Assembly: GCA_003131665.1 (NCBI GenBank)
Contig: PKWA01000039.1
Span: 1 to 16,766 of the forward strand
DNA from: Acidimicrobiaceae bacterium
GTDB taxonomy: Bacteria; Actinomycetota; Acidimicrobiia; Acidimicrobiales; RAAP-2
DNA length: 16,766 nt
Reading direction: 5' to 3'
Both the position numbers and the translations under genes were made by a program. Positions 1,973 through 16,594 of this stretch are shown piece by piece (positions within the stretch are counted from its first letter, which is position 1; every line of letters begins with the position of its first letter). The notes under the pieces are model-generated. The model saw only the letters and a program-made list of their open reading frames with translations, made no database searches and was not told the origin of the DNA.

Positions 1973-2010
1973 GACGCCACCGGCCCGGACGCTCCCCACG
2001 TTCGGCCTCC

Positions 2011-2135: not shown

Positions 2136-2143
2136 CGTACCCG

Positions 2144-2431
2144 GTGGACATCGTTTCACTGCTGTACGGCCGCCAGGATCGCGACTGGCAGACCAGAGCC
2201 AACTGCATGGGGGTCGATCCCGACCTCTTCTTCCCGGAGCGCGGCGCGTCCACCCGGGAAGCCAAAGAGGTCTGCCGCGGATGTGTCGTGCGTGAGGACT
2301 GCCTCGAGTACGCGCTGGCCAATGGCGAGAAGTTCGGGATCTGGGGCGGACTGTCCGAGCGCGAACGTCGTCGCCTGCGTCGGGCCCGAGCCATGAGCCG
2401 TCGCGTCTCGGAGACGGCCTCGGCCTCCTGA
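2144..2431 (+). CDS. whiB: WhiB-family [4Fe-4S] transcriptional regulator, WhiB/WhmD type
   Basis: A 95-residue Wbl protein. The four cluster-ligating cysteines are at 21, 44, 47 and 53 (C-x22-C-x2-C-x5-C), followed by the GIWGG turn at 65-69 and a basic C-terminal tail from about residue 71 (SERERRRLRR) that contacts DNA in this family. The segments FFPERGASTREAK and CLEYALANGEKFGIWGG closely match Streptomyces WhiB and mycobacterial WhiB2/WhmD as I remember them, and these proteins control cell division and septation with WhiA. The GTG start is set by a strong Shine-Dalgarno 8 bases upstream. The gene converges on the formimidoyltransferase gene with 30 bases between stops. It is monocistronic as far as seen. 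Subfamily assignment is fairly sure; regulon membership cannot be judged from the window. Confidence 0.93.
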   Translation: MDIVSLLYGRQDRDWQTRANCMGVDPDLFFPERGASTREAKEVCRGCVVREDCLEYALANGEKFGIWGGLSERERRRLRRARAMSRRVSETASAS

Positions 2432-2461
2432 TCCGACCGACACCCCGCCAGGGTCGTCCTG

Positions 2462-3337
2462 TCAGCCGGCGCCGGACCTCTCGAGGCGCGCTTCGACGGT
2501 CCGCTCCGGATCGAGGTCAAGCTGTCGCCACCGAACCCGGGGCGCCTCCTCGACCACCCTGGCCGGTGCCAGTCCCACGAGTTCGGCCCTGGTGACCCAG
2601 ATCCCGGCGGCACGAGCCAGACGGTCGACGTCGTCGTAGACCTCGGCCGGACCCACGCTCATGGGGTCGACGAGATTGCACGAGACCTGGGTCACACCGG
2701 CCGTGCTCAAGCCGAGGGCCCGGACGGCCCGACGGCGAAGAGCGGCGGCGATGGACCTGGCCACATCGACATCGCCGGTCGACAACCACACGTTGTAGGC
2801 GACCAGAGCGAAGCGGGCGCCCACCGCGCAGGCCCCGGCCGTCCGATGGGGCAGGGCCGGCCCCCTATCCGGATCGAGTCCCCGAAAAGCCCGCTTGCGC
2901 ACCTCCGGTAACGAACGCTCCGGGCCGTAGGCGAAGCACGGGAGCGCCAGGTCCCGCCCGGCCCAAAGCGCGAACCGGTCGCGAGCGGCGACGGCGCCCG
3001 ACAGATCGCCCTCGCCCCCCACCGGGTTCCCGTCGTAGTCGAGCGGCGTGAAGGGGACGACGTCGAGGGCACCGAGCCGGGGATGGACCCCACGATGACG
3101 TCGGAGGTCGACGAGTTGCACCGTCGTGCGGGCGACCTCGCGCACGGCCTCCTCGAGATCCCCACCGGCCATGGTGAGAACCATGCGATTGTGATCGGCG
3201 TCAGTGTGGATGTCGAGCACACACCGACCACCGGCAGCGGTGACGGCTCCGATGGTCTCGAGGTCCCGGCCCTCGCTGATGTTCACCACGCAGGCGAGCC
3301 CGACCGGCTCGGCGGCGCACCCTCCGACGGGTGCCAC
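2462..3337 (-). CDS. Glutamate formimidoyltransferase (FTCD N-terminal type)
   Basis: Transfers the formimino group between N-formimino-L-glutamate and tetrahydrofolate in histidine breakdown, in the cytoplasm. With the GTG at 3337 as start (291 residues) the sequence shows NISEGRD at 19-25, DADHNR at 46-51, and RRHRGVHPRLGALDVVPF at about 79-96. His85 in that last motif aligns with the catalytic His82 of the porcine enzyme. A C-terminal subdomain carries VTQVSCNLVDP and ELVGLAP-type motifs. The length fits a transferase without the cyclodeaminase domain. A start at 3403 is possible (313 residues), but its extra Pro/Cys-rich residues lie inside the upstream whiB-like gene and look non-homologous. 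The preferred GTG is only 4 bases after that gene's stop, which suggests translational coupling. No other histidine-utilisation genes are visible, so the pathway is inferred from the family alone. Confidence 0.88.
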   Translation of the reverse strand: MAPVGGCAAEPVGLACVVNISEGRDLETIGAVTAAGGRCVLDIHTDADHNRMVLTMAGGDLEEAVREVARTTVQLVDLRRHRGVHPRLGALDVVPFTPLDYDGNPVGGEGDLSGAVAARDRFALWAGRDLALPCFAYGPERSLPEVRKRAFRGLDPDRGPALPHRTAGACAVGARFALVAYNVWLSTGDVDVARSIAAALRRRAVRALGLSTAGVTQVSCNLVDPMSVGPAEVYDDVDRLARAAGIWVTRAELVGLAPARVVEEAPRVRWRQLDLDPERTVEARLERSGAG

Positions 3338-3341
3338 CTGA

Positions 3342-3590
3342 TCAGGTGTGGCTGGAGGGCAATCTGGCCAAGCGGTGGGCCCGCAGGATGCGTCGCCGTT
3401 CACGTTCGGACGTGCCGCCCCACACCCCGTGATCCACCCGGTTGGACAGGGCGTACTCGAGACAGGGGGCCTTCACCGGGCACTCGGCGCAGATGCGCTG
3501 GGCCACGATGACGCCCATGCCGTCACGGGGAAAGAAGGTCTCGGGTGAGTACTCGCGACACAGTCCATCGGCCATCCACTCTGTACCCAT
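3342..3590 (-). CDS. Small WhiB-like [4Fe-4S] regulator, upstream of the formimidoyltransferase gene
   Basis: An 82-residue Wbl protein starting at the ATG at 3590, chosen because AGGAGG lies 5 bases upstream. An in-frame upstream ATG at 3641 would add 17 residues, part of them translated through the ribosome site, and is unlikely. The cluster cysteines are 11, 34, 37 and 43 (C-x22-C-x2-C-x5-C); GVWGG is at 55-59, followed by SERERRRILRAHRLAR as the basic tail. It has the same core as the whiB at 2144 but a shorter N terminus and a different middle (PRDGMGVIVAQRICAECPVK), so it is a paralogue, not a recent duplicate. The order wbl then formimidoyltransferase, 4 bases apart, suggests one transcript. 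A redox or nitric-oxide-sensing role is usual for the family; the target genes are unknown. Confidence 0.92.
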   Translation of the reverse strand: MGTEWMADGLCREYSPETFFPRDGMGVIVAQRICAECPVKAPCLEYALSNRVDHGVWGGTSERERRRILRAHRLARLPSSHT

Positions 3591-3595
3591 AACCA

Positions 3596-3601
3596 CCTCC
3601 T
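3596..3601 (-). promoter_or_regulatory. Ribosome binding site of the small whiB-like gene
   Basis: On the minus strand AGGAGG is followed by 5 bases and ATG (3590). This is the strongest Shine-Dalgarno in the window and decides the start of the gene. Confidence 0.8.
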
Positions 3602-3669
3602 CCCCTACTTCTACTCTCACAGTAGCGACTCTTGTGGTCACTCTTCGTTACGTTTAATTAATGTCCGCT

Positions 3670-3695
3670 GGAACCGGTTACCACTTAGAGGCGTC
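3670..3695 (+). promoter_or_regulatory. Possible ECF-sigma-type promoter
   Basis: GGAACC at 3670-3675 and CGTC at 3692-3695 are separated by 16 bases, resembling the GGAAC-N16/17-CGTC pattern of extracytoplasmic-function sigma factors. It points toward the small gene at 3758. The -35-like element overlaps an 8-bp palindrome, AACCGGTT (3672-3679). This is a pattern match only. Confidence 0.35.
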
Positions 3696-3720
3696 TTAGA
3701 GATACTTTCGCGCGGTCCAG

Positions 3721-3726
3721 TAGAAT
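3721..3726 (+). promoter_or_regulatory. Possible housekeeping -10 element before the small gene
   Basis: TAGAAT is a good match to TANNNT/TATAAT. It would give a transcript starting near 3733, about 25 bases ahead of the GTG at 3758. No clear -35 box is present at the usual spacing. Confidence 0.4.
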
Positions 3727-3747
3727 GACCAAAGTACGTGTTTTTCT

Positions 3748-3753
3748 AAGGAG
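3748..3753 (+). promoter_or_regulatory. Ribosome binding site deciding the start at 3758
   Basis: AAGGAG precedes the GTG at 3758 by 4 bases. It favours that start over the upstream in-frame ATG at 3725, which overlaps the -10-like element. Confidence 0.65.
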
Positions 3754-3757
3754 AATC

Positions 3758-4036
3758 GTGAGCCAGGTCCCGACCAGTGAAGTCACCGAGGTCGTCGATC
3801 CGGTCGGTCACGTCCAGGTCATCTACCTCGGACCGGTGGCTCCACACTGGGAGTGCCGCATGGTCTTTGGCGACGAGGAGCAGATCCAGGCCTTCGTCGA
3901 TCGCGTGGACGCGCGCCTACGTTTCTTGCCGCCGCACGACCCACAGTTTCGCCGAAACCGCGAGCGCGTCAATCGCGACGGCGAACGCGAGAACCTGCTC
4001 GTTGAGTGGAATCTCGGCTACGACGAAGAGTCTTAG
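3758..4036 (+). CDS. Small uncharacterised protein
   Basis: I do not recognise a family. With the GTG at 3758 it is 92 residues, predicted soluble, with no signal peptide or membrane segment. Visible parts are a beta-like stretch around VQVIYLGPVAPHWECRMVF, an acidic helix (DEEQIQAFVDRVDARL), and a charged, Arg/Asn/Glu-rich C-terminal third ending in an acidic tail. There is one Cys. The start is fixed by AAGGAG 4 bases upstream; an ATG at 3725 would add 11 residues but lacks its own site. It converges on the DUF2342 gene with a 4-base stop overlap. Good start signals, a plausible promoter and codon choice like its right-hand neighbours argue that it is a real gene. Confidence 0.7.
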   Translation: MSQVPTSEVTEVVDPVGHVQVIYLGPVAPHWECRMVFGDEEQIQAFVDRVDARLRFLPPHDPQFRRNRERVNRDGERENLLVEWNLGYDEES

Positions 4037-5154
4037 GCGAGCGGCGAGTTCGTCACCCGCTCGTACCACGCGGCTGGATCGTAGAGTTCGCTCGCGCTCG
4101 GCAGTCCGTCCACCCGCAACAGGGCGCCAAAGACACTGAGTGAGTGCTCGGCGACCAGCGTCGCGACAAAGGCCGTGGCCGCATCGTGGTGCGGGCCCTG
4201 GGTCGCAATGCCAAACAACGCGGCGGCGGCGTCCTCACCTCGCGCGTCGCTTCGACGGTGGCGCGCGTAAGCCTCGGCGAGCGCCGGTCGGGGCCCTAAG
4301 AGCCTTTCGGTGATGTCCTGAGCGGCGAAACAGAAGAAGGCCAGCAGCACGCTGGTGGCGGCGTTGATGGCGCGCGTCGCGTCACTCTCCTCGGGCACAT
4401 TGATGCCGTCGAGCAACGACGCGGGGTCGTTCATCATCTCGTTGATGTCGCCGCTTTCCATCATGGTCTGCAGTCGGCCCATCAGATCACCCTGGACGGC
4501 GTTGGCTTCGTTGACGGTGTCGATGAGTAACGCGCGCAACGCGTCGCCGGTACCCGGCTGGGTCAAGACCAGTGAGGCCACGAACTCTTGGGCGAGCGCG
4601 AAGACGTAGACCTCGTCGTGCTCGAGCGACCACTCGTTGGCGAAGGTCGCCAGGTTGTTCACCACGAGCAGTCGCTGCTCGTCAACGCGCGGCAGCGGCA
4701 GTACCGCCAAGCTCCACGCGCGCGCCGAGAAGTGTCCGGCGACCGAGCCCATCTGAAAGCCGGTGAAGAGCGGTCCAATGGTCGAGGCGATCTGGGCCAT
4801 CAACTGGGTGCCGGTGACGTCGGGCTCTTCGTTCGTGGGGGGCGACGTGACGACCATCGGTGCCATCAAGGGACGCCACTGTTCGAGCGCCGCGCTGGTC
4901 AACGCGGAGCGATTAACGGCCACGATCGAGGGCTCGCGCGAGACGCCAAAGAGGGCGTCGACGTGTCGCCCGACGAGGGGCGCCAACTCTTCCAGGCGTT
5001 GGCGTTCGATGGGCAGCGGGTTGGGATCGCCGTCCTCGCCCCGGGCAATGTTGAGCGCCAGTTGGCTGGCCGTGGTGTACCAGGCGTCGGGACCTTGTTG
5101 GCTCAGCATCGAAAAGATGTCGCCGAACATGTCGCCGAAGGGATTGACCGTCAC
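4033..5154 (-). CDS. DUF2342/Zincin_2-like protein with a lost HExxH metal site
   Basis: Resembles the actinobacterial DUF2342 (Zincin_2, 'zinc-dependent metalloprotease') family, 373 residues. N-terminal NPFGDMFGDIFSML, then QLALNIARGED, an ELAPLVGRHVDAL helix, VNRSALTSAALEQWRPLM and GFQMGSVAGHFS follow the family's order as I remember it. In active members a WVALHExxH-type helix follows the strand RLLVVNN. Here the equivalent is VFALAQEFVAS (184-194), so HExxH reads QEFVA (189-193) and both zinc histidines are missing. This is probably a non-catalytic member. It starts at a GTG that overlaps the stop of the HtrA-like gene as GTGA, so the two are probably translationally coupled. In M. tuberculosis a DUF2342 gene is, from memory, next to the PDZ-S16 and UPF0182 genes, which are also found in this window. 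There is no signal peptide; it is likely cytoplasmic. Family call moderate; loss of the site is seen directly if the call is right. Confidence 0.72.
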   Translation of the reverse strand: MTVNPFGDMFGDIFSMLSQQGPDAWYTTASQLALNIARGEDGDPNPLPIERQRLEELAPLVGRHVDALFGVSREPSIVAVNRSALTSAALEQWRPLMAPMVVTSPPTNEEPDVTGTQLMAQIASTIGPLFTGFQMGSVAGHFSARAWSLAVLPLPRVDEQRLLVVNNLATFANEWSLEHDEVYVFALAQEFVASLVLTQPGTGDALRALLIDTVNEANAVQGDLMGRLQTMMESGDINEMMNDPASLLDGINVPEESDATRAINAATSVLLAFFCFAAQDITERLLGPRPALAEAYARHRRSDARGEDAAAALFGIATQGPHHDAATAFVATLVAEHSLSVFGALLRVDGLPSASELYDPAAWYERVTNSPLA

Positions 5155-6245
5155 TGCACCAACTTAGAGGGACAGCCCAGCGTGACATTCGCGTGGTGCA
5201 CCGTGGTCTTCCAGTCGAAGGTCAGTTTCGCCGAGGTGTAGGCCGGGGTGAGGTACAACGTCGACACCAACTGGTCCCAGGTGTTGAGGTCGGCGCCGTT
5301 CCAGTCGGTGATGACGTCGCCGACGATGACGTTGGCGTGGGCGGCGGCACTGTAAGGCACGACGTGGGTGACGAGCACACCGCCGCCTTGTTCGTTCTTG
5401 CCCGTGATGCCCAGTTGCGCGTGACAGCCCCGTCCGGTCGCGACGACCTCGGCGACTTGAGCGACGAAGCGCGCCGCGTACCACTGGTGACGCGAGGAGA
5501 GCACGGCCACGACGTAGCCCTTGGCGTCGACCGCGATGGCATCGACGTAGCCACTGAGCGAGGTATCGGACTTCGTGGCGAGGTAACGCACGACCCCCGC
5601 GGCACTATTCGTTGGATCACCGAGTGTGGTCTGGGACCAGTCGTACTCGGGTGTGGGGGAGGTTCCCGAGAGTATCGGCGCCACGGCAGTGACCGAGGTG
5701 CTCGAGGGCATCGGGTCGAGTTTCAACGCGGTCACCGGCACGCTGAGGCGCACGATGGAAAAGCCCATGACGTTGTCGCGCCCCACGAGCGTGACCGGAA
5801 AGTCTTCCTTGGTGGCGGTCCAGCCACTGATGAGTGCGTTGACGGGGATGGCGGTGGTGGTCACCGCCAGATTGTGCGGTAACACCAGTGCCGCGACGTG
5901 CACGACGTGACCGGGCGAGGAGATGGTCAGGTCGACCGTGTGGGCGGCGGCGACGCGGCTCGAGGCTGGCAACGCGGAGAGCGTGGAGGCCAAGTGCGCG
6001 GGCAAGTTGCCGTTGGGCGTCCCTGCGCCGCGATTGACGATCAACACGACCCCGCCCACGACCAACAACACGGCCATCAGTCCGGCGATGACCCGTGGGC
6101 TGATGGACCGGGCCCGTACGCTCGTAGTGGTCGCGAGCGCCTCAAAGCTCGGCAGCTCGCTCGGGTGGACCCAGGCGCGGCCTTCTACGGGCGGTCTCGC
6201 GCGACGACCAGGTCTGCGCCATCTCGAAAAATCCCATCCAGCCAC
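5151..6245 (-). CDS. Membrane-anchored HtrA-like protein with degenerate protease domain and PDZ domain
   Basis: 364 residues. A basic cytoplasmic N terminus with the actinobacterial AWVHPSELP motif (24-32), one transmembrane helix at about 52-70, an extracytoplasmic trypsin-like region (about 100-265) and a C-terminal PDZ domain (about 276-355, with VVPYSAAAHANVIVGDVITDW). The fold follows HtrA/DegP, but no triad is visible. The His position falls in AVTTTAIPV, the Asp position in GRDNVMGFSIVRL has Gly, and the GNSGGP loop is replaced by SDTSLSGYVDAIAVD. It is therefore probably a scaffold or substrate-binding pseudoprotease, not an enzyme. Cys274 and Cys358 may pair. Start is a GTG with no Shine-Dalgarno but with TAGCCT 7 bases upstream, which fits a leaderless mRNA. 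It is followed by the DUF2342 gene with a 4-base overlap and is divergent from the mreB-like gene. Confidence 0.82.
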   Translation of the reverse strand: MAGWDFSRWRRPGRRARPPVEGRAWVHPSELPSFEALATTTSVRARSISPRVIAGLMAVLLVVGGVVLIVNRGAGTPNGNLPAHLASTLSALPASSRVAAAHTVDLTISSPGHVVHVAALVLPHNLAVTTTAIPVNALISGWTATKEDFPVTLVGRDNVMGFSIVRLSVPVTALKLDPMPSSTSVTAVAPILSGTSPTPEYDWSQTTLGDPTNSAAGVVRYLATKSDTSLSGYVDAIAVDAKGYVVAVLSSRHQWYAARFVAQVAEVVATGRGCHAQLGITGKNEQGGGVLVTHVVPYSAAAHANVIVGDVITDWNGADLNTWDQLVSTLYLTPAYTSAKLTFDWKTTVHHANVTLGCPSKLVQ

Positions 6246-6252
6246 GGAGTAA

Positions 6253-6258
6253 AGGCTA
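6253..6258 (-). promoter_or_regulatory. -10-like element for a leaderless HtrA-like transcript
   Basis: TAGCCT on the minus strand ends 7 bases before the GTG at 6245. With no Shine-Dalgarno present, this spacing is what leaderless actinobacterial genes show. No good -35 box was found. Confidence 0.4.
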
Positions 6259-6288
6259 GTAACGAAAGGGTTCTTAATGCCGTCGCCC

Positions 6289-6294
6289 TAACAT
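6289..6294 (+). promoter_or_regulatory. -10-like element for a leaderless mreB-like transcript
   Basis: TAACAT lies 8 bases before the ATG at 6303, again without a Shine-Dalgarno. The divergent region is only 57 bases long, so both divergent promoters must fit within it. Confidence 0.4.
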
Positions 6295-6302
6295 CGCTAG
6301 TC

Positions 6303-7307
6303 ATGGCTGTAGACGTCGCTCTCGACATTGGAACCTCACACACGCGACTAGCGACCAGTCAGCGCGGCGTGCTCTTCGATGAACCCACGATGGTCGCCAT
6401 AGACACCAACTCTGGGGTCGTGGTGGAGCTCGGACACGGTGCGCTCGAACTGGTCGGGCGCACGTCGCGACACGTGGTGGTCTTTCGGCCGTTCGCCCAA
6501 GGCGCCACCGTCGACTTCGACGTGACCGCGCGACTCATCGAAGCGCTCTTTGACCGGGCGGGCGTGTCCAAACTCAGTCGAGCTCGTGTGGTGATGAGCG
6601 TGCCGTCACTCGCGACGGCCATCGAACGCCGTGCGTTGCGCCAAGCCGCCATCCAGGCCGGCGCACGAGAAGTCAGTTTGGTCGAGGCGCCGTTGGCGGC
6701 GGCGATCGGCTTGGGACTGCCGGTGCAAGACCCCGTGGGCTCGGCGGTGACGCTGCTTGGTGCGGGCGCGTCGGAGGCGGCCATCATCTCGTTGGGCGGC
6801 ATCGTCACTGGCGGCGCAAGGCGCCTCGGCGGCAACGACGTCGACGCGGCCATCGCGACCTTGCTACGACTCAACCTGGGCGTGGTGGTCGCGCCGCCGA
6901 TCGTCGAGATGCTCAAGTGCACGCTGTCCTCAGCCCTTGGACGAACGGCCGGACTCTCAGAAGTCGTGCTGGCGCGAAGTGTTGATCGAGGTGAGTTGAT
7001 GCAGGTCGAAGTCAGCGCCGAGTTGGTGAACGCGGCCGCGCGCGACGTGCTCAACTCGACGATTCGCATGATCCAAGAGTGTCTCGGCGACACCGCGCCC
7101 GACCTCTCCCAGGACGTCAGCGCACGAGGCATGACCCTGGTTGGCGGACACGCCAATCTGCGAGACCTGGACGAGCTGGTCGCGATCAGCACCGGGGTCG
7201 AGGTGAACGTTGCGAGTCAATCAGACCTAGTCGTCATTCACGGTCTGCAGGCCTGTCTCGAGGAGATGGCTTCGCTGCACGCGCTCTTTCGAAGCGCGGA
7301 TCGTTAG
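6303..7307 (+). CDS. MreB-like actin homologue with degenerate phosphate-2 motif
   Basis: 334 residues, the normal length of MreB, the bacterial actin that guides lateral wall synthesis. Recognisable parts are phosphate-1 LDIGTSHTRL (7-16), RPFAQGATVDFDVT (62-75), SVPSLATAIERRALRQAA (99-116), VEAPLAAAIGLGLPV (127-141), and SLGGIVTGGARRLGGNDVDAAI (163-184). In phosphate-2 the usual DIGGGTTE reads LLGAGASE (151-158): the Mg/nucleotide Asp is Leu151 and the Thr is Ala156. The adenosine motif GGGA is GGHA (281-284), and the second Glu of IEEP is Ala129. Nucleotide hydrolysis is therefore doubtful, and this may be a divergent paralogue. The ATG at 6303 was chosen because homology begins there; the open frame upstream is antisense to the HtrA-like gene. 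No mreC or mreD is in the window. It converges on the HEAT gene with a 4-base stop overlap. Confidence 0.87.
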   Translation: MAVDVALDIGTSHTRLATSQRGVLFDEPTMVAIDTNSGVVVELGHGALELVGRTSRHVVVFRPFAQGATVDFDVTARLIEALFDRAGVSKLSRARVVMSVPSLATAIERRALRQAAIQAGAREVSLVEAPLAAAIGLGLPVQDPVGSAVTLLGAGASEAAIISLGGIVTGGARRLGGNDVDAAIATLLRLNLGVVVAPPIVEMLKCTLSSALGRTAGLSEVVLARSVDRGELMQVEVSAELVNAAARDVLNSTIRMIQECLGDTAPDLSQDVSARGMTLVGGHANLRDLDELVAISTGVEVNVASQSDLVVIHGLQACLEEMASLHALFRSADR

Positions 7308-7936
7308 TGATCGCTACTGCGTAGCTGGGTCACGGCCGCACGAACTTGCCAGTCGCGGTCGTCGCGAGCCTCGTCGAGAGCGGCTTCGACGTCAGGTCCC
7401 TCAAAGTTGGAAAGGGCCACGATGGCGCGACGGCGAACCGCCGGCTTGTCCTTTAATGCGTCGATGATCACCGCTCGAGCACGGTCGTCACCGATCGCGC
7501 CGAGCGACGCCACGGCCGACTCTCGACATCGTGCGTCCTCGTGGTTCGTCGCGACATCGCAGAGTTCATCGACGGCGCCCACGTACAGATGCTCTCCCAA
7601 CGCGAAGGCCGCGCCGTCGACGACGAGGGCGTCGTTGTCCTGCAGCAAGCGCACGACGTCATCGAGCACCGAGTCGTTCTCGATGCCCGCGTGGGCGAGC
7701 TGTTGGAGCGCTTCTCGGCGAATCTCCACGTCGTCGTCGCCGAGTGCCCGGTGCCACAGTTCAGGGTCGACGAGCGATTGGCGCACCAGACCGCGCAGGG
7801 CCAGCACGCGATGACGAACATTCGAGGAGTTAAAGTGCGTCATCAACAGTGCCTCGCCGCCATCGCCCAGGGCGTAACTCGCGCGCAGGAGTTCATTCTC
7901 CAAGGGTTCAACTAGCGTTGCGTCATCACTTTGCAC
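7304..7936 (-). CDS. HEAT-repeat protein
   Basis: 210 residues made almost entirely of helical HEAT/PBS-lyase-like repeats. About five units are visible, for example SSNVRHRVLALRGLV (37-51), DDDVEIRREALQQLAHAG (67-84), DALVVDGAAFALGEH (102-116), DARCRESAVASLGAIGDDRA (134-153), KPAVRRRAIVALSNF (164-178) and DRDWQVRAAVTQL (193-205). Such proteins are protein-binding scaffolds; no catalytic residues are expected. The GTG at 7936 is preferred because residues 7-30 (TLVEPLENELLRASYALG...) already form the first helix pair. An ATG at 7843 would give 179 residues and cut into it. The chosen start overlaps by 6 bases the start of the divergent S16 protease gene. No Shine-Dalgarno is visible. The partner is unknown; the neighbours suggest an envelope-related one. 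Confidence 0.78.
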   Translation of the reverse strand: MQSDDATLVEPLENELLRASYALGDGGEALLMTHFNSSNVRHRVLALRGLVRQSLVDPELWHRALGDDDVEIRREALQQLAHAGIENDSVLDDVVRLLQDNDALVVDGAAFALGEHLYVGAVDELCDVATNHEDARCRESAVASLGAIGDDRARAVIIDALKDKPAVRRRAIVALSNFEGPDVEAALDEARDDRDWQVRAAVTQLRSSDH

Positions 7937-9094
7937 GATCCCATTCCACCACCAAAACCGGGCGGGCGTCGATTCGGGGCCGTACTCGTGAGCGCCGCAA
8001 TCATTATCGCCCTGGTACTCGGTCTGCACGCGTGGAACATCTCGGAGTACGCGCTCACCCCGGGCAACGCGACGCCGGTGGCGCCGCTCGTGAAGATCCA
8101 CGGCGTCGCCACGAATCCCCGTCACGACACGATCATGCTGGCCGACGTCTATCTGCAGTCGCTGAGCGCCTGGCAGTGGTTGACGATGCACTTTCAATCC
8201 CACGTGCAGTTCGTTCCCGCCGCGGCGCTCGTGGATCCGGGAATACCCAATGACGAACTCGGCGCGCAGGGGTTTCTCGAAATGCGTGACGCCAAGCAGG
8301 CCGCGGAAGTGACGGCCTTTCGAACCTTGGGCTGGACCGTGCCCGCCACGCGAACCGGCTCGATCGTCAACGGCGTGGTGTCGCCGTCGCCGGCCCGCTC
8401 GGCGGGCGTGCACGTGGGCGACGAGATCGTGGCCGTCAACGCCACGCCCGTGCGCTCGACGTGTGAGCTCATTGGCGACGTCCACGATCTGGCGCCGGGA
8501 ACGAGTGTGCGACTTCAAATCGAGCGGGTGAAGATCTCCGACGCCGGGACGTTGTCGTGGGGTCCGGTGCAGGACCTGAGCGTGAAAACGGCCGCCGTGC
8601 CGAGTTCGGTCGGGGTGTCGGGCTGTACGGGTTTGACGGGCAGACCTCGCTCGTGGTTGGGCGTATCGGGCGAAGACGGATTCAGCTACCGACTGCCCGC
8701 GACGGTGTCCATCGATACCGCCAACATCGGCGGACCGTCGGCCGGACTGGCCATGACCTTGTCGCTCATCAACGAGCTGAGTAGCGGATCGCTGACGGGC
8801 CATCACGTGGTCGCGGCCACCGGCACCATCGACGTGAAGGGCGACGTGGGCGACGTGGGCGGCGTGGCGGAAAAGACGGTCGCGGTGCAACGTGCGGGAG
8901 CGTCCTACTTCATCGTGCCCGAAGTGGAGGTGGCAACGGCTCGCGCCGCGGCCTCACCCGGACTCAAGATCCTTGGCGTGACGACACTGAGTCAAGCGCT
9001 GCGCGACCTGCGCCGGCTCGGCGGCGTGGCCCCCCAGCCCCTCACCACGCCCCTCGTAACCCCAGATACTGGCGCGCTACGCCGTAGTCTGTAA
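7931..9094 (+). CDS. PDZ-domain Lon-like serine protease (S16, YlbL type), membrane anchored
   Basis: 387 residues. Proline-rich basic N terminus, one transmembrane helix at about 17-33, an extracytoplasmic domain with a PDZ region (about 144-200, SPSPARSAGVHVGDEIVAVN), and a C-terminal Lon-type S16 domain. The Ser-Lys dyad is intact: Ser270 in ANIGGPSAGLAMTL and Lys315 in GDVGGVAEKTVAVQRAG. Unlike true Lon it has no AAA ATPase, so it degrades or trims substrates without ATP at the membrane. Members in actinobacteria sit beside UPF0182, as here with one gene between. The frame is closed by a stop at 7913-7915, so the start is the TTG at 7931 or the GTG at 7988; TTG is preferred because the Pro/Arg segment before the membrane helix is typical. 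The next gene follows in the same frame after TAA-GGA. Confidence 0.9.
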   Translation: MHDPIPPPKPGGRRFGAVLVSAAIIIALVLGLHAWNISEYALTPGNATPVAPLVKIHGVATNPRHDTIMLADVYLQSLSAWQWLTMHFQSHVQFVPAAALVDPGIPNDELGAQGFLEMRDAKQAAEVTAFRTLGWTVPATRTGSIVNGVVSPSPARSAGVHVGDEIVAVNATPVRSTCELIGDVHDLAPGTSVRLQIERVKISDAGTLSWGPVQDLSVKTAAVPSSVGVSGCTGLTGRPRSWLGVSGEDGFSYRLPATVSIDTANIGGPSAGLAMTLSLINELSSGSLTGHHVVAATGTIDVKGDVGDVGGVAEKTVAVQRAGASYFIVPEVEVATARAAASPGLKILGVTTLSQALRDLRRLGGVAPQPLTTPLVTPDTGALRRSL

Positions 9095-9097
9095 GGA

Positions 9098-10765
9098 ATG
9101 GACGACCGGCGATCACTTTCTTCGACGCGCCAGTCGTCGTCCGAAATTGCGCGGGCCAACTTCACGACGCTTCGCAAGGGAGGGGTGGATCCCAATGAGG
9201 TTCGCCTTCACCTCGAGGCGGTGGCGCGAGAGATGGGCCACCTCGAGCACCGCATCCGAGAACTTCAAGAACAGCTGAGCGAATCTCAGCGACGCGTCGC
9301 CAACCCCGTCCTGGACGAGGCGACGTTGGCCGGCGCTTTGGGCTCACAGAGCGCCGCCATACTTCGCTCCGCCCACGAAGAGGCCGGTCGCGTCACCGCC
9401 GAAGCACAAGAGCGCAGCGCCCAAGTCTTCACCGAGAGTCAACAGCGCAGCGCCGGGCACCTCATTGAAGCCCAAGAGCGCGCGACGGCCTTGATCACCG
9501 AGGCCGAGAACACGGCCCTGCAGATCGATCACGAGGCCCGCCTGGCCGCTGAACGGCTGATCGATTCGGCCAAGGTCAATGGCGAGGCACTCATCGATCG
9601 AGCGAGAGAGCAGGGGCGCGCCATCGTCGAGCAGTCGAACGAAGCGCGCCGAACCGTCTTGAACGACCTCGCCGTAAAGCGCAAGGCTCTGCAACTTCAG
9701 ATTGAGCAACTCCGTGCGGCGCGCGACACGTTGGGCTCGTTCGTCTCCTCGGTGCGCCAACAGGTAGACGACGTGGTTTTGGGAATTGACTCATCCGACG
9801 AATCCGCGCGCGCCAGCGCTCTCGAAGCGCTGCGACAGCACTCCAACGCGCCTGAACCGAGCGAAGAAGAGTTGCTCGCCGGCACGCCGCTACGCGAAGT
9901 TCCCGAGAGTGCGCCGGATGCGCCGCCCGATCCCAACGCTCCAAAGACTCGGGGGCGCCGCGCCGCCAAGGGGGCCGCGCCGGTGGGCGAAGTGCTACTC
10001 GAGGACGATCCTTCGGGCACCGACGTCGTCAACGAGATCTTTGCCCGGCTGCGAAAGGCGACGCTTGAAGAGCGCGGTGCGTCGGCCCACACGCCGCGCA
10101 AGGCCCCCGCGCACAAACTCCAGACGCCCGTCGGCGAGCTCTTTCATCGCCGGGACCAAGCGCTCGAAGAATCACTCACCGTGTTGACCCGGCGCGTGAA
10201 GCGAGCGCTACAAGACGACCAGAACATCATGCTCGAACGTCTGCGCGACGTGAAGGCCATGATCACGACCGAGTTAGAAGACGAACACACCCAGCGGGCT
10301 CGCTACGCCGAGTCGGCCTACGAGGCGTTGGCCCATGCGGCAAGCGCCGGTGAGCAGTTCGCCAAGGACGAAGGCGGTGTCGCGGGAGCCCCCTTGTCCA
10401 AGGCGGCGCTCGATGAGTGCGCGGCGGACCTCGCGGTGACCGTCGTGCTGGCGCTGCGCAAGCGCATCTTGGCCGACGGCAGCGGCGAAGGCACCGAACG
10501 TGCGAACGCGGCCTATCGCGAGTGGCGCGGCGCTCGCGTCGAGCGACTCTGCACCGACGCCGCCAGGCGGGCCTTTCACCTCGGTGTCGTCACGGCCGCC
10601 CAGGGACGCCTTATTCGCTTTGTCGCCGCGCCCAACGACGCGCCGTGCGACGCGTGCGCGCGCGACGCCTCGAGCGCCGAGCGCATCGCCGGCGAGAACT
10701 TTCCCAGTGGATCGCCCTACCCACCGCTGCACGCGGGATGTGCCTGCACCGTCGTACCCGTGTAA
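9098..10765 (+). CDS. DivIVA-like coiled-coil protein fused to a MuF-like C-terminal domain
   Basis: 555 residues. Residues 21-60 (FTTLRKGGVDPNEVRLHLEAVAREM) match the DivIVA N-terminal pattern of F, R-G-x-D, E-V, L, V, followed by a coiled coil. Residues 101-199 are nine consecutive 11-residue repeats. Residues 245-345 are a Pro/Ala/Glu-rich, probably disordered linker. Residues 350-505 are helical. Residues 507-555 resemble the end of the phage Mu gpF/head-morphogenesis (MuF) domain: Cys517-x2-Cys520, then YPPLHAGCACTVVPV with His545, Cys548 and Cys550. DivIVA proteins recruit partners to curved membrane at poles and septa; MuF modules occur in phage capsid-assembly proteins and some toxins. 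I know of no standard protein combining them. The ATG follows the S16 stop by 3 bases, with AAGGA touching the ATG, so translation is probably by coupling. Start moderately sure. Confidence 0.8.
   Translation: MDDRRSLSSTRQSSSEIARANFTTLRKGGVDPNEVRLHLEAVAREMGHLEHRIRELQEQLSESQRRVANPVLDEATLAGALGSQSAAILRSAHEEAGRVTAEAQERSAQVFTESQQRSAGHLIEAQERATALITEAENTALQIDHEARLAAERLIDSAKVNGEALIDRAREQGRAIVEQSNEARRTVLNDLAVKRKALQLQIEQLRAARDTLGSFVSSVRQQVDDVVLGIDSSDESARASALEALRQHSNAPEPSEEELLAGTPLREVPESAPDAPPDPNAPKTRGRRAAKGAAPVGEVLLEDDPSGTDVVNEIFARLRKATLEERGASAHTPRKAPAHKLQTPVGELFHRRDQALEESLTVLTRRVKRALQDDQNIMLERLRDVKAMITTELEDEHTQRARYAESAYEALAHAASAGEQFAKDEGGVAGAPLSKAALDECAADLAVTVVLALRKRILADGSGEGTERANAAYREWRGARVERLCTDAARRAFHLGVVTAAQGRLIRFVAAPNDAPCDACARDASSAERIAGENFPSGSPYPPLHAGCACTVVPV
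9398..9694 (+). repeat. Nine in-frame 33-base units encoding hendecad coiled-coil repeats
   Basis: Codons 101-199 of the DivIVA-like gene divide into nine units of 11 residues without insertion, e.g. AEAQERSAQVF, TESQQRSAGHL, IEAQERATALI. Position 3 is Ala or Ser in eight of nine, position 10 is hydrophobic in eight, and position 2 is Glu in the first five. An 11-residue period indicates a nearly straight or right-handed coiled coil. The first three units are also similar at DNA level (CAA-GAG/CAG-CGC core). Confidence 0.75.
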
Positions 10766-10785: not shown

Positions 10786-13686
10786 GTGCGTAGTCCCACC
10801 GACGTCCCCCGGCGTCCCCGCCGAATCGGCCGCCTCTCGCGGCGATTCTGGTTTGGACTGGCCTTCGTCGTGCTCCTGGTCGGATTTCTCTCGTTACGCA
10901 ACCTGGCGGTGCTGTGGACCGACCAGATGTGGTTCTCCTCGGTGGGGCTCTCCAGCGTCTTTTCCACCCTGTTCTTCGTAAAGGTGGGACTCGGTTTCAC
11001 CTTCGGCGCCATCTTCTTTTTCATCATGTGGGGCAACCTCTTGCTCACCGATCGATTCGGAGCGCGCGACCTCTCCTTTGACCCCGAAGACGAGGTCGTG
11101 CGACGTTTTCAAAACGTCGTACGCCCCTACGCCAAGCGCGTCTACGCGGCGATCGCGCTGGTCATGGGCATCATCGCCGGGCTCAACGCGACGGGCCAGT
11201 GGCAGAAGTATCTCCTGTTCTCTCACGCGCAGCTGTTTCACATAAAGGACCCGGTCTTTCACAAGGACCTGGGCTTTTACGTCTTCACGTTGCCCTTCGT
11301 CTCATTCGTCGTGACCTGGTTCCTCGTCATCTTGATCCTGGCGCTGATCGTCACGACCGGCTTTCACTTTTTGAACGGCGGCATTCGCACGACCCGCGTC
11401 ACCCCGAGGGTGTCGCCGAGGGTAAAGGCCCACCTCTCGGTGATCGGGGCCGCGATCGCGTTGATGAAGGCGGCTGGGTATCTGCTGGCCAAGTGGGAGC
11501 TGGTGAACTCCACCAACGGCTACGCCCAGGGCGCGAGTTACACCGACATCCACGCCCGCATGCCGGCGCTGACCATACTGTTCTACCTGTCGCTCGCCGC
11601 CGCGGCGATCCTGTTGTACAACGTTCGCTCGAGGGGTTGGTCGCTGCCGGTGGTGGCGGTCGGGCTGTGGGCCTTCGTGGCGCTCGTCATCGGCGTGCTC
11701 TATCCGACGTTCCTCCAGGCCTTGAAGGTCAGCCCCAACCAACAGTCCTTGGAGGCCCCATATATCCAGCGCAATATCGCCGCGACCCGCGCGGCCTTTG
11801 GCCTAAAAAGCGTGCAGTACCACACCTTCGCTGGCTCGACGTCGATAAGCGAGTCTCAGATTAAGGCCGATGAGCCGACTTTGAACAACATCCGACTCTG
11901 GGACCCGGCGAACACGATTGCCCTAGAGACGGTGACCCGACGTCAGTCAATACGCTCCTACTACACCTATACCACGCTGGGGGTGGACCGTTACTACATC
12001 AACGGCAAGCTGACCCCGGTGTTGATCGGCGCGCGCCAGCTCAACCCCGCCGGTTTGCCGTCTCAGAGCTGGGTCAACCAGCACCTGACGTACACGCACG
12101 GCCTCGGCGCGGCAGTCGTGGCGGCGAATGACGTGGACGCCTCGACGGGTAACCCCAAATTCGTCGTCTCTAATGTGCCACCGGTTTCGACCAACGGCAT
12201 GCCGATGTTGACCGAGCCCGACATCTACTTTGGCATCAACGACCCCGGATGGGTGGTGGCGAACTCCAAGCAGCCCGAACTCGACTACCAGGTGAACTCG
12301 GGCGCGAACGCGGGCACGCCGGTCGAATCGCACTACTCGAGCACCGGGGGCGTCGCGGTGGGGAACATCTTTTCTCGCCTGGCGCTCGCGCTGCGACTCG
12401 GGGACTTCAACTTCCTCATTTCGAACCGGATCGATTCGAAGAGCCGCGTGCTCTTCGTTCGCGACGTACGTCAGATGGCCCAAAAGGCCGCACCCTTCCT
12501 CTCCTTTGACTCCCAGCCCTACGCCGTCATCGCCAACGGCCAGGTGCAGTACGTCTTGGACGGCTACACGACCTCGAGCGACTACCCCTACAGCGAGAAC
12601 GCCTCGCAGCTGGGCATCAACATGGGTGGACTGCCCGGCAGCTTTAACTACGCGCGCAACTCGGTCAAGGTCGTGATCAACGCCTACACCGGTTCGATGA
12701 AGTTCTACGCCAACGACCCCAACGACCCCATTTTGAAGGCCTACCGCTCGGCCTTCCCCTCGATGTTCCAGCCCCTCAGCGCGATGCCCTCGACGATTCG
12801 CTCGCACCTGCGCTACCCCTCGGACCTCTTCTCGGTCCAGGCGGCGACGCTGGGGCGCTACCACATCACCTCGCCCAGCTCCTTTTACACCGCGTCGGAC
12901 CGCTGGGAGGTCTCACCCACCACCGGTGCAGGGTCGCCCACCGAGGCACTCGCGCGCACGGCCGTGGTCGATTCAGCGGGCAACGTCGTCTCCACCTCGC
13001 TCTCGCCAATGAGCCCTATTTATCAGGTCGGCTCCCTGCCCAACGCCAACCACCAGCAGTTGCTCGAAACGATTGACTACGTGCCGGCCGGCAACTCCTC
13101 GACGGTCCAGAGCCTGACGGCTTTCATGGTCGCCACCAGTGACCCCGAAGACTACGGGCAATTGAGCGTCTACGAGACGACCCGCGGCACGACCGTCACC
13201 GGACCGCTGCAGGCCGACTCCGAGATTCAACAGAACTCCAAGGTCAGCTCCAACATCACTCTGCTCGACCAGCACGGCTCGGAAGTCATCCTGGGCAACA
13301 ACCTGACGGTGCCACTCGATTCCAGCGTGCTCTATATCCGTCCGCTCTACGTCACCAGCACCTCGAACCCGATGCCCCAGCTGCGCTACGTGATCGCGGT
13401 CTTTAATCAAGACGTCGGCATCGAGCCAACCTTGGCCGGCGCGCTCTCGGACGTGCTCGGCGCGAACGTCAGTGGTCTCTCCGGCTCCAAGGGCAAGGGG
13501 AAGGGCAACGGCACGACCCCTCCCACCACTAGTGCCAGCGTGGACTCCTATCTCCAACAGGCCTCGGCCGACTACACCAACGCACAAAAGGCCCTGACGG
13601 ATGGGGACTTGGCGCTCTATCAAAAAGACGTCAACGCGATGAACCAACAGCTCCAACTAGCGCAGAACTCACTCGGTAACGGCTAG
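10786..13686 (+). CDS. UPF0182 family (COG1615) membrane protein
   Basis: 966 residues, normal for this actinobacterial and cyanobacterial family of unknown function. The N-terminal 305 residues hold about seven transmembrane helices (roughly 22-42, 60-86, 113-132, 165-192, 214-236, 255-274, 282-304) after a basic leader. The remaining 660 residues form a large extracytoplasmic domain with family segments such as SPNQQSLEAPYIQRNIAATRAAF, NNIRLWDP and YPYSENASQ (the first is given in part only: residues SPNQQSLE onward). A Gly/Lys/Thr/Pro linker (GKGKGNGTTPPTT) near residue 900 leads to a short helical C terminus. In M. tuberculosis the UPF0182 gene Rv3193c neighbours the PDZ-S16 gene, consistent with this locus. 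The start is a GTG with no Shine-Dalgarno. The last 18 bases overlap the convergent potC-like gene. Function is unknown. Confidence 0.93.
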   Translation: MRSPTDVPRRPRRIGRLSRRFWFGLAFVVLLVGFLSLRNLAVLWTDQMWFSSVGLSSVFSTLFFVKVGLGFTFGAIFFFIMWGNLLLTDRFGARDLSFDPEDEVVRRFQNVVRPYAKRVYAAIALVMGIIAGLNATGQWQKYLLFSHAQLFHIKDPVFHKDLGFYVFTLPFVSFVVTWFLVILILALIVTTGFHFLNGGIRTTRVTPRVSPRVKAHLSVIGAAIALMKAAGYLLAKWELVNSTNGYAQGASYTDIHARMPALTILFYLSLAAAAILLYNVRSRGWSLPVVAVGLWAFVALVIGVLYPTFLQALKVSPNQQSLEAPYIQRNIAATRAAFGLKSVQYHTFAGSTSISESQIKADEPTLNNIRLWDPANTIALETVTRRQSIRSYYTYTTLGVDRYYINGKLTPVLIGARQLNPAGLPSQSWVNQHLTYTHGLGAAVVAANDVDASTGNPKFVVSNVPPVSTNGMPMLTEPDIYFGINDPGWVVANSKQPELDYQVNSGANAGTPVESHYSSTGGVAVGNIFSRLALALRLGDFNFLISNRIDSKSRVLFVRDVRQMAQKAAPFLSFDSQPYAVIANGQVQYVLDGYTTSSDYPYSENASQLGINMGGLPGSFNYARNSVKVVINAYTGSMKFYANDPNDPILKAYRSAFPSMFQPLSAMPSTIRSHLRYPSDLFSVQAATLGRYHITSPSSFYTASDRWEVSPTTGAGSPTEALARTAVVDSAGNVVSTSLSPMSPIYQVGSLPNANHQQLLETIDYVPAGNSSTVQSLTAFMVATSDPEDYGQLSVYETTRGTTVTGPLQADSEIQQNSKVSSNITLLDQHGSEVILGNNLTVPLDSSVLYIRPLYVTSTSNPMPQLRYVIAVFNQDVGIEPTLAGALSDVLGANVSGLSGSKGKGKGNGTTPPTTSASVDSYLQQASADYTNAQKALTDGDLALYQKDVNAMNQQLQLAQNSLGNG

Positions 13687-14502
13687 CTCAGTTGGTCGCC
13701 GTGACCTCGGCGCCGCGAAAGTGTCGCGCCCCGTGAGCCGTGCGGCGATGACGATTGGAATGAACATCAAGATCACCACGGCGGTCACCACGACGTTGAC
13801 CTCGGGGAGCTGTTGACCGAGGCGAATGGCGCCGAAGATCCAAATCGGCAACGTATTCTGCGCACCGGCGGTGAACGTCGTGACGATCACCTCATCAAAA
13901 CTGAGCGCGAAGGCCAACAGCCCTCCCGACACCAGCGCGGTCGCGATAAGGGGCAACGTCACGAAGCGGAACGTCTGGTGCGCCGACGCGCCCAGATCGG
14001 CCGACGCCTCAAAGAGCGTGGAGGAGGTTCGTCGAAGCCGAGCGATGACGTTGTTGTAGACGACCACGATGCAAAAGGTCGTGTGGCCGATGATGATCGT
14101 CCAGATCGAGAGATCGATGCCCGCCCACTGAAACGTCGAGTGCAGGGCCACGCCGGTGATGATGCCCGGCAACGCGATCGGCAACACCAGCAGCAACGAG
14201 ATCGTGTCGCGGCCGAAGAATTTTGCGCGGTGCACCCCAAAGGCCGCGAGGGAGCCGAGCAGCAGCGCCAGCACCGTCGCGGCGCAGGCCGCCTTGATCG
14301 ACAACACGAAGGCCTGGCGCACTTGGTCGTCGTGCCAGGCCACTTGGTACCACGAGAGCGTCCAGTTTCGAATCGGCCAGGTCTCGATATTGGACTTGTC
14401 GAAACTGAAGATGACGATGGTGATGATTGGCCCGAAGAGAAAGACCAGCACGGCCCAGACCCACAGCCACAGTCCGCCTCGGGCGAGCAGTCGGCGTTTC
14501 AC
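13669..14502 (-). CDS. potC: Polyamine-type ABC transporter permease, PotC-like
   Basis: 277 residues with six transmembrane helices (about 11-33, 64-90, 100-121, 131-152, 184-205, 236-254). The EAA loop that docks on the ATPase, EASADLGASAHQTFRFVTLP, is at 165-184, between helices 4 and 5. The N-terminal pattern PIITIVIFSFDKS and the WTLSWYQ motif are typical of PotC, the second permease of spermidine/putrescine importers. The GTG start overlaps the PotB stop as GTGA, so the two permeases are probably made in equal amounts. It is the last gene of the minus-strand transporter unit and overlaps the UPF0182 3' end by 18 bases. Substrate class comes from family resemblance; putrescine, spermidine or another small cation cannot be told apart here. 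Confidence 0.9.
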   Translation of the reverse strand: MKRRLLARGGLWLWVWAVLVFLFGPIITIVIFSFDKSNIETWPIRNWTLSWYQVAWHDDQVRQAFVLSIKAACAATVLALLLGSLAAFGVHRAKFFGRDTISLLLVLPIALPGIITGVALHSTFQWAGIDLSIWTIIIGHTTFCIVVVYNNVIARLRRTSSTLFEASADLGASAHQTFRFVTLPLIATALVSGGLLAFALSFDEVIVTTFTAGAQNTLPIWIFGAIRLGQQLPEVNVVVTAVVILMFIPIVIAARLTGRDTFAAPRSRRPTELAVTE

Positions 14503-15425
14503 AGCGCCTCGAACGCGCCGAGGCGTTTGGCGATCAAGAGGTAGGCCACCATGATGGCGATCGGTACGGTGGCGAGCGCCGCGGCGAGGGGCAGGTTGCC
14601 GCCGATCAGCAGATTGTCGTAGATCGCGTTACCGATCAACGTGGAGTTGGCACCCCCCACCAACAGCGGTGTCACGTAGTCACCGAGGGTCAAGGAGAAG
14701 GTGAAGATCGATCCCGCGACCAGTCCGGGCAAGGCGAGGGGCAAGATGACGTGGCGAAAGGTCCACCAACTCGACGCGCCTAAGTCGCTCGAGGCGTCCA
14801 ACAGCGACGAGGGAATTCGCTCCAATGCGCCAAAGAGCGGCACGATCATGTAGGGCAGCCAGATGTAGCTAAAGGTCAGCCACATCGCTCCGTTGGTGAA
14901 GCCGAGGTTGGGCGAGGGGAGGCCGAGGTGCTGGAAGCTCCAGTTGAGCGCGCCGCCCTTTTCCAAGATTGAGATCCAGGCGTAGATCTTGGCGAGGTAG
15001 CTCGCCCACAACGGCAAGAGCACCGCGACCAACAAGAGCCGCTGTCCGCGCTGGGTCGCCACGCGCGCCATCACGTAGGCGAAGGGAAAGGCGATGATCG
15101 CGTCGGTCAGCGTCACCAATGCCGCCAAGATGACGGTGCGCTCGATGATCGAGGGGTAGGCGCCCGAGGAGATCTGGTGGAGGTTGACGTTGGTGAGTTG
15201 GTGGGTGACGTTACCGGTGAAGCCGTTGATGCTCCAAAAGGCCGTGACGAGCATCAAGACCAGTGAACTGACGTAGAGCACCAAGAACCACAGCAGGGGC
15301 GGCGCGAGCAAGAACGCGGTGCCCCAACGTTGGGCCAACGACGACGAGCGCAGGGAACGAGTCCCAGAGCTCTTCGCTGGTTCGAGGGTGGCTACCCTCC
15401 GATCTGGACCCACGCGTTGGTCCAC
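14499..15425 (-). CDS. potB: Polyamine-type ABC transporter permease, PotB-like
   Basis: 308 residues with six transmembrane helices (about 41-63, 97-120, 129-151, 180-201, 232-252, 278-299). The EAA loop DASSDLGASSWWTFRHVILP is at 210-229. FLLAPPLLWFLVLYV and SYLAKIYAWISIL are typical of PotB, which pairs with PotC to form the membrane channel. The GTG at 15425 lies within the end of potD (34-base overlap); a GTG at 15413 or a TTG near residue 30 could be the real start, since residues 1-30 show no family resemblance. No clear Shine-Dalgarno separates the options. Identity is firm, the start is uncertain. Confidence 0.9.
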   Translation of the reverse strand: MDQRVGPDRRVATLEPAKSSGTRSLRSSSLAQRWGTAFLLAPPLLWFLVLYVSSLVLMLVTAFWSINGFTGNVTHQLTNVNLHQISSGAYPSIIERTVILAALVTLTDAIIAFPFAYVMARVATQRGQRLLLVAVLLPLWASYLAKIYAWISILEKGGALNWSFQHLGLPSPNLGFTNGAMWLTFSYIWLPYMIVPLFGALERIPSSLLDASSDLGASSWWTFRHVILPLALPGLVAGSIFTFSLTLGDYVTPLLVGGANSTLIGNAIYDNLLIGGNLPLAAALATVPIAIMVAYLLIAKRLGAFEAL

Positions 15426-16594
15426 TCACTGTAGGGAACACAGTCGTTCTTGCCGTTGTCGCACGTCGAGAGCGGCGTCTTCCAGAACTTGATGGACTTG
15501 AAGTACGAGTCGGGCGCGTTGGCGTGGTACGCGGCGCACGAGCCGGCCTGGATCTTGTTCATCAACGGACAGGCCAAGGAGTTATCCGGCGTCTCGCCGT
15601 AACTGACGGCCTGCTGGGCCTGGACCTCGGGGGTGGTGATCCACTTCATCCAGTCGTAGGCGCAGTTGGGATCCGGCGCGTCTTTGGCGAGAAGCCACGA
15701 GTCGGCCCAGCCCGTCGCGCCCTCTTTGGGAATCGTCTCTTTCACGGCCACGTGGGAGGCCTGCAGGGTCGAGGTCTGGTAGGGCCACGCCGCACCGACG
15801 ACGGCCGTACCGCTCGAAAAGAGGGTGATCTCGTCGCTGGCCAAACTCCAGTACTTGGCGATGAGCGGCTTCTGGGCGGTCAAGAGCGCGATGGCCGCGT
15901 TGAACTGGGTCTGGGTCAGCTCATAGGGGTCAGTGATGCCCAGAGACGGCTGGGACTTCGACAGGTAGAGCGCGGCATCGGCGATCTGAATGGGGTCGTT
16001 CGGCACCGTGATCTCGCCCTTGTACTTCTTGTTGTAGATCACGCTCCACGAGGTCGGGGCCGTCTTGAAGGTCTTGGTGGAGTAGAGCAACACGTTCGGT
16101 CCGAACTGCAAGCTCACCCCGTAGTGCACGCCGTTGATCGTGTTAAAGCCCGGGGACTGAAGAAACGGGCGCAACTGCTTCCACGAGGGGATCAGCGCCA
16201 TGTTGACGGGTTTTACGTCGCCGCCGTAGATGAGTCGAAGGTCCGCGTCGCCTGAAGCGGACACCAGGTCGTACTGTCCACCGCCGCCTCCGGCCATCAA
16301 CGCCACCATCTCACCCGATGAGCCGGCGTACTTCGTGGAGACGACACAGCCCGTCGACCTCTCGAAGGGCTTCACCCACTGCGGCTGGGCGTACCCCTCC
16401 CAGGCGATGAGACTGAGCTTGCCCTCACCCTTACCAATGGACGTCTGGGGTGTCATGCCCGCGGTCGGTGGTGTCAGCGTCGAGGACGCGCCCGCGCTAA
16501 TGGAGACGGCACTGGCCCCCAGGCTTAAGAGTGACAGCGCGGCGAGCGCGATGGCGAAGCGCCCACGAGCGCCTCTGCGAAGATGACGAAACAT
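15392..16594 (-). CDS. potD: Polyamine-type ABC transporter substrate-binding protein, PotD-like, without lipobox
   Basis: 400 residues. A signal peptide is clear (basic MFRHLRRGARGR, hydrophobic 13-28, Ala-rich cleavage region near 27-37), but there is no cysteine there, so it is not a lipoprotein, unlike most Gram-positive binding proteins. The mature part follows PotD: LSLIAWEGYAQPQW (60-73), YDLVSASGDADLR (108-120), YGVSLQFGPNVLLYST (158-173), PKEGATGWADSWLLAKDA (289-306) and the helical PEVQAQQAVSYGETPDN. Six cysteines (83, 311, 342, 353, 378, 385) may form disulfides outside the cell. It captures the polyamine or similar solute and delivers it to PotBC. Start is the ATG at 16594 with a purine-rich AAGGGGGG ahead of it. 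It follows the potA-like gene by 32 bases. Confidence 0.88.
   Translation of the reverse strand: MFRHLRRGARGRFAIALAALSLLSLGASAVSISAGASSTLTPPTAGMTPQTSIGKGEGKLSLIAWEGYAQPQWVKPFERSTGCVVSTKYAGSSGEMVALMAGGGGGQYDLVSASGDADLRLIYGGDVKPVNMALIPSWKQLRPFLQSPGFNTINGVHYGVSLQFGPNVLLYSTKTFKTAPTSWSVIYNKKYKGEITVPNDPIQIADAALYLSKSQPSLGITDPYELTQTQFNAAIALLTAQKPLIAKYWSLASDEITLFSSGTAVVGAAWPYQTSTLQASHVAVKETIPKEGATGWADSWLLAKDAPDPNCAYDWMKWITTPEVQAQQAVSYGETPDNSLACPLMNKIQAGSCAAYHANAPDSYFKSIKFWKTPLSTCDNGKNDCVPYSEWTNAWVQIGG

Follow-up and report, generated by a model that had tools for sequence, protein, structure and literature searches.

In the window, that is, the whole stretch of 16,766 nucleotides analysed here, one open frame at 9098..10765 (+) begins with ATG and encodes a protein of 555 residues. 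The stop of the upstream gene, encoding a PDZ and Lon-type protease domain protein (PDZ-Lon), is situated 3 nt before this ATG, and the downstream UPF0182 gene opens with a GTG start 20 nt past the stop of the frame. Both neighbours named in the preliminary description, a membrane protease and UPF0182, were recovered by profile matches. The features of the locus are as follows.

6303..7307 (+), MreB-like actin-family gene (presumably, as named by sequence pattern)
7931..9094 (+), PDZ and Lon-type (S16) protease domain protein (PF13180, PF05362)
9098..10765 (+), DivIVA-MuF fusion protein, 555 residues (open frame, PF05103 match and homologue search)
9137..9301 (+), N-terminal head of DivIVA type, roughly residues 14-68 (PF05103 over residues 14-120; family profile against solved heads)
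9302..9772 (+), coiled coil of non-heptad, hendecad-like period, roughly residues 69-225 (hydrophobic period in 114 aligned homologues)
9998..10072 (+), short stretch of acidic character around 'VVNEIFARLRKATLEE', roughly residues 301-325, with variable linkers on either side (conservation, dN/dS and charge)
10130..10597 (+), helices of the MuF-like tail, roughly residues 345-500 (alignments; hhalign against viral MuF)
10598..10762 (+), MuF-like tail, Cys/His end (residues 501-555), C517-x2-C520 ... PPLH545AGC548AC550 (motif and homologue conservation)
10786..13686 (+), UPF0182 membrane protein (PF03699, 821.5 bits)

Elsewhere in the window, two small genes at 2144-2431 (+) and 3342-3641 (-), which we take from their pattern to be WhiB-like, flank a formiminotransferase-like gene, and polyamine-type ABC transporter genes, again by sequence pattern, occupy 13669-16594 (-).

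Among the relatives, UPF0182 is located directly downstream of the fusion gene in 69 of the 70 loci with room for it; in the sole exception (L012) it follows 3.2 kb further, with extra DNA between about 9690 and 12939. In all 20 longer loci (9.8-17 kb) around tail matches UPF0182 adjoins the fusion gene, and PDZ-Lon is present in 15 of them, directly upstream in 8. By an adjacency rule, PDZ-Lon is upstream in 45 of 68 loci, a figure that is an artefact of the rule because stop-to-stop frames overlap; the other 23 loci all list an overlapping PDZ-Lon frame. Within the class, Acidimicrobiia as judged from named relatives that are mostly Acidimicrobiaceae or Acidimicrobiales, 93 of 99 assessable matches have UPF0182 as the next gene downstream, with 36 further matches outside the assessment, and the six without this adjacency (G054, G129, G164, G010, G180 and G192) all have the listed UPF0182 match on another contig except G180. 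Relatives of the MreB-like gene exist in 58 of 60 relatives' loci of at least 11 kb; in three loci where the fusion family has no match (L223, L228 and L231), the MreB-like gene is found near or directly upstream of UPF0182. In genome G013, the PDZ-Lon gene, the fusion gene and UPF0182 are present twice, with each fusion copy beside a UPF0182 copy. Both fusion copies in this genome (L212 and L213) are without the Cys/His end.

The DivIVA-type N terminus of the preliminary description is borne out by PF05103, which matches residues 14-120 with E=4.9e-7 and 30.2 bits, above the cut-off of 28. The same profile is found at E<=1 in 16 of 19 members of one diverse set and in all 14 of another, and the family profile A2 matches the solved N-terminal domains of DivIVA, Wag31 and GpsB. 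The rod behind the head is clearly non-heptad: over residues 80-180, the hydrophobic period is 3.64 (mean of 114 homologues), with a periodicity power of 9.0 at 3.64, 8.8 at 11/3 and 0.5 at the heptad value of 3.5. The long hendecad coiled coil described earlier stands as the best fit to about residue 180; the period peaks at 3.62 over residues 85-215 and at 3.60 over 120-215. The fusion gene is the second DivIVA-type gene of its genome, apart from the canonical divIVA, a 222-residue frame located outside the fusion locus in an ftsZ-sepF-type cluster that reads ftsZ-yggS-sepF-divIVA (gene names by pattern).

Compared with five relatives, with synonymous sites near saturation, dN/dS is low in the head, the rod, the helical part of the tail (0.06-0.14) and the Cys/His end (0.09-0.21), and higher in the linkers. 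Between these variable linkers, the 'NEIFARLRKATLEE' segment is near-invariant in 114 homologues; this acidic segment (residues 301-325), with a net charge of -4.0, has a dN/dS of 0 to 0.05 in the four of five comparisons for which the ratio is defined. The helices of the tail include a KRxLQDxQN...R helix and a 'YREWRGxRVE...D' helix, the latter being the counterpart of IARTE in viral MuF, and the residues K368, R369, D373, N376, P536, G538, H545, C548 and C550 are invariant in a 23-row tail alignment.

At the C terminus, the residues of the C-x2-C ... PPLHAGCAC signature are exactly those claimed beforehand, namely C517, C520, H545, C548 and C550. With residues 300-555 as the query, 613 proteins were found at E<=0.001 (8000 scored candidates), and C..C...PxHxxCxC is present in all 120 homologues among the matches listed. 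Among 360 collected proteins, comprising the 120 matches listed from each of three homologue searches, the Cys/His pattern is present in its strict form in 270, in a loose form in 334 and as HxxCx[CH] in 342. A chance motif was ruled out by the conservation among homologues together with the low dN/dS.

The MuF profile PF04233 gives no match at E<=10 to the fusion protein, whole or tail alone; the tail has no convincing match to the PDB by sequence, and tblastn of the protein (P0001) against phage records returns none at E<=1, with a single record for one divergent family tail. Such results would suit an unrelated zinc ribbon whose likeness to MuF arose by convergence, a reading that the remaining profile evidence renders very improbable. 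The tail alone (336-555) matches phrog_2662, a 'portal protein' family and the best-scoring PHROG family for the tail, with E=1.6e-6 over profile positions 491-708 of 717, and the match covers residues 355-555, including the helices upstream of the putative ribbon. An expected MuF match within residues 430-555 was thus missed by PF04233 but obtained with phrog_2662, the C terminus of which is MuF-like, over residues 415-555 (E=6e-6). The whole protein yields weak minor-head and head-morphogenesis matches in PHROGs (E 0.0078 and 0.027). In alignment A1, all 22 relatives' tails match phrog_2662 at E<=0.1 (best 1.1e-14), leaving the full-length P0001 as the only one of 23 rows without such a match, and the profile positions lie within 484-712 in the seven relatives' tails inspected. 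Full-length P0138 likewise has no match to phrog_2662 even at E<=10, whereas its own tail piece (L097) scores 3e-11; the matches therefore depend on scanning the tail separately, and the HMMER composition filter is suspected as the cause of the full-length misses.

In the wider family, PF04233 is found at E<=1 in 5 of 19 diverse members of one set and 6 of 14 of the other (best 5.9e-5), and spans 3-112 of its 112 positions in one Nitriliruptorales protein; its gathering cut-off is exceeded by no orthologue whose score was examined. In 60 class genomes, no protein is over the cut-off, and all 4 matches at E<=0.001, the only ones for which gene identity was checked, are the fusion gene, while the matches between E 0.001 and 1 include several other genes. 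The best of the four (G014) reaches 28.4 bits against a cut-off of 29.6 and covers 2-111 of 112, which counts against convergence, and the remaining three score 22.7-24.6 bits. PF28068 is precomputed for P0033, P0069 and several of P0333-P0360 and is not shown by the Pfam search used here.

Profile-profile alignment with hhalign extends the kinship beyond the cysteines. Against ten viral proteins (set A5), the family tail scores 178.5, the helices alone 49.0 and the Cys/His end alone 97.9, compared with at most 21.3, 13.9 and 17.2, respectively, in 40 column shuffles and 15.8, 14.0 and 12.4 for reversed profiles; the 178.5 is inflated, since A5 was collected by similarity to the fusion family. 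The set comprises 9 of 15 viral loci and the Brevundimonas portal, the five left out being identical to or part of those used; viral locus L161 is present in the tree only, outside A5, and L141 was excluded from set A3. Against four MuF proteins not picked by similarity, i.e. Mu gpF and three over-cut-off PF04233 proteins from other genomes of the phylum, the score is 53.8 over 114 columns, with 60 shuffles reaching at most 18.5. Furthermore, the tail and viral MuF share a common order of helix, W, C-x2-C, F-x-x-G and PPxHxxCxC. The hhalign scores and the phrog_2662 match thus disfavour the convergent zinc ribbon, and the MuF or portal-MuF homology proposed for the C terminus is sustained over about 200 residues. 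Judged by these profiles, the tail is MuF-derived rather than a phage MuF gene, since its neighbours are PDZ-Lon and UPF0182, not a portal gene.

According to PMC5576092, most MuF proteins belong to phages and some bear toxins, which would accord with a prophage remnant or a MuF-type toxin-delivery protein. This alternative is scarcely credible here: phage genes are absent among the profiled neighbours, the gene is syntenic through the class and a second class, its dN/dS is low, and the chain ends 5 residues past the MuF motif, so that nothing toxin-like follows it. Neighbours, synteny and low dN/dS ruled out the prophage remnant; the gene is chromosomal, syntenic and conserved in two classes.

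The Cys/His ending had been regarded as the MuF hallmark; the signature is indeed present, but the kinship spans the helices too, and the signature is lost in several lineages. In 14 of 133 tail-bearing genomes, the only matches end before the Cys/His end (by eye; G058 and G192 at contig edges). Nine frames in eight genomes without this end stop soon after the helix preceding it, and no Cys/His motif was found in the three forward frames within 600 nt. Because the Cys/His end is degenerate or lost while the helices stay, it is not part of the essential core; by this sequence comparison, the helices and not the putative metal site form the common core, and the Cys/His end is not indispensable.

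The tail profile is found in 133 of 198 class genomes (108 of 136 of good quality), and a single-sequence search matches in 121 of 198. The full-length profile matches in 153 of 198, a count that may include canonical DivIVA heads; hence, the tail-only count is used. Across 396 phylum genomes, the tail is present in 51, of which 18 are outside the class (by eye), with named relatives in Nitriliruptorales and Egibacteraceae (class Nitriliruptoria). Seven of eight frames inspected outside the class show a DivIVA head. The frame L141 7220-8935 has a MuF-type tail and a coil beside UPF0182 with no DivIVA head visible, and PF05103 matches its coil half only, below the cut-off. A tree was built from hand-chosen tails, 45 cellular and 16 viral; in it, one branch (97/90) parts all the cellular tails from the viral ones, and one class row (L154) is placed among rows from outside the class. 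Within the limits set by eleven long end branches and an unknown root, this single branch is consistent with one origin. Judging from this distribution, the fusion is old and common to Acidimicrobiia and Nitriliruptoria, not a local curiosity. The viral contig L161 carries two overlapping frames, 1313-4939 and 4629-6962, each with a MuF-type Cys/His motif.

DivIVA heads collect at curved membrane. The fusion protein is perhaps best regarded, in a tentative reading that falls somewhat short of probable, as a second, specialised scaffold of the DivIVA type with a phage-derived tail for docking a membrane complex of the envelope, UPF0182 being the likeliest candidate. The tail would originate from a tailed-phage MuF module of the gpF/SPP1-gp7 type, apparently portal-fused. 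The head and the coiled-coil rod would self-assemble at curved membrane, at a pole or a septum. The viral relative of the tail docks on the portal ring; the tail itself may have been exapted as a docking module that keeps a membrane complex for envelope growth, with UPF0182 as the likeliest one, at this curved membrane. Docking would fall to the conserved helices, to which the Cys/His end would add a stabilisation that some lineages can dispense with. We infer the pole or septum placement, the metal binding and the partner. In the viral case, SPP1 gp7 gains entry to the procapsid through its binding to portal gp6; it is dispensable for assembly, and only about a quarter of the virions lacking gp7 infect (PMC6316719).

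The long adjacency and the doubled pair of G013 point to a shared task of the fusion protein and UPF0182. Nevertheless, UPF0182 has the wider distribution, being present in 185 of 198 class genomes against 133 of 198 for the tail, and therefore manages without the fusion in many, e.g. family f21; conservation upstream of UPF0182 can be operon inertia. This leaves room for an unlikely yet serious rival with the same identity for the protein, in which the tail is mainly a self-association module closing or capping DivIVA-type filaments and UPF0182 is a mere operon neighbour. The retention of the helices where the Cys/His end is lost would fit such a module, as would FilP and PolyDIV, DivIVA relatives that evolved via altered rods and oligomer state according to PMC9858780. 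On the other hand, an adjacency in 93 of 99 class matches and also outside the class, along with the doubled pair in G013, suggests a shared task.

DivIVA proteins tether chromosomes in other organisms. A tail that binds DNA, making the protein a one-piece chromosome-to-pole tether, is accordingly conceivable, and the title of a paper cited in PMC5576092 calls SPP1 gp7 a DNA-binding protein. However, averaged over 114 close homologues, the net charge is +0.4 over residues 345-393, -5.2 over 394-433, +1.1 over 434-500 and -1.6 over 501-555, and in 18 diverse members it is -2.6 over 434-500 and -1.7 over 501-555. DNA binding is less likely for a tail that is near neutral to acidic, and the profiled neighbours are membrane- or envelope-type genes; the tether is quite improbable as a result.

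UPF0182 has no convincing match among solved structures, and no functional study of it was found in the open-access literature. We take Rv3193c to be the mycobacterial UPF0182 gene. In transposon libraries without the division gene rv0954, Rv3193c, a hypothetical protein with 7 membrane helices, is under-represented, like rodA, pbpA and fhaB (PMC8093794). This need in the absence of rv0954 may provide a thin outside hint of a link between UPF0182 and division. A bolder extension, speculative and unlikely, is that a portal-docking module of phages became the cargo adaptor of a polarity scaffold: the tail would have kept its recognition of a ring-like membrane assembly, with UPF0182 in place of the portal as the builder of the ring, and would recruit this assembly to zones of growth in two deep classes of actinobacteria.

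To our knowledge, few parts are common to tailed-phage heads and bacterial polarity machinery, and no paper on a DivIVA-MuF fusion was found in the open-access literature, subscription papers and preprints being beyond the scope. The fusion appears to be long-kept and adjoins a conserved membrane-protein gene, which points to the recruitment of a phage part for a cellular function. If the docking reading is true, a capsid-docking module would have been taken into cell polarity for the long term, and UPF0182, a widespread actinobacterial family, would gain a candidate cytoplasmic partner. The function of the MuF domain is poorly known (PMC5576092); here the domain gains a non-viral setting, in which its binding role is open to study apart from the virion.

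Compared with DivIVA and Wag31 (PF05103), the fusion protein has the same N-terminal head, with a match above the cut-off, and a coiled coil, but it differs as a second DivIVA-type gene with a non-heptad rod, a variable linker and a MuF-derived tail. FilP, Scy and PolyDIV are likewise actinobacterial and have a DivIVA-like head, with extended hendecad rods in FilP and Scy (PMC9858780). As far as that paper goes, a MuF tail is described for none of DivIVA, GpsB, FilP, Scy and PolyDIV, and the word phage is absent from its main text.

In the case of phage MuF, SPP1 gp7 and Mu gpF, the helices are followed by W...C-x2-C...G...PPxHPxCxC, as in the fusion family, and the homology is seen at the profile-profile level; MuF3 and MuF4 were defined by profile-profile homology and genomic context (PMC5576092). 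In contrast to a phage MuF gene, the fusion gene is chromosomal, does not follow a portal gene, is headed by a DivIVA head and rod, and belongs to a family that sometimes loses the Cys/His end. The MuF polymorphic toxins similarly join a MuF domain to another domain (PMC5576092), the toxin being joined to the MuF part at its carboxyl end (PMC6316719), whereas in the fusion protein MuF is C-terminal with nothing after it. Portals with a MuF-like C terminus, such as phrog_2662 members and the putative portal of Brevundimonas phage vB_BpoS-Strzyga, carry the MuF-like part at the same end of the chain; in the fusion protein, the DivIVA head and the coiled coil replace the portal part.
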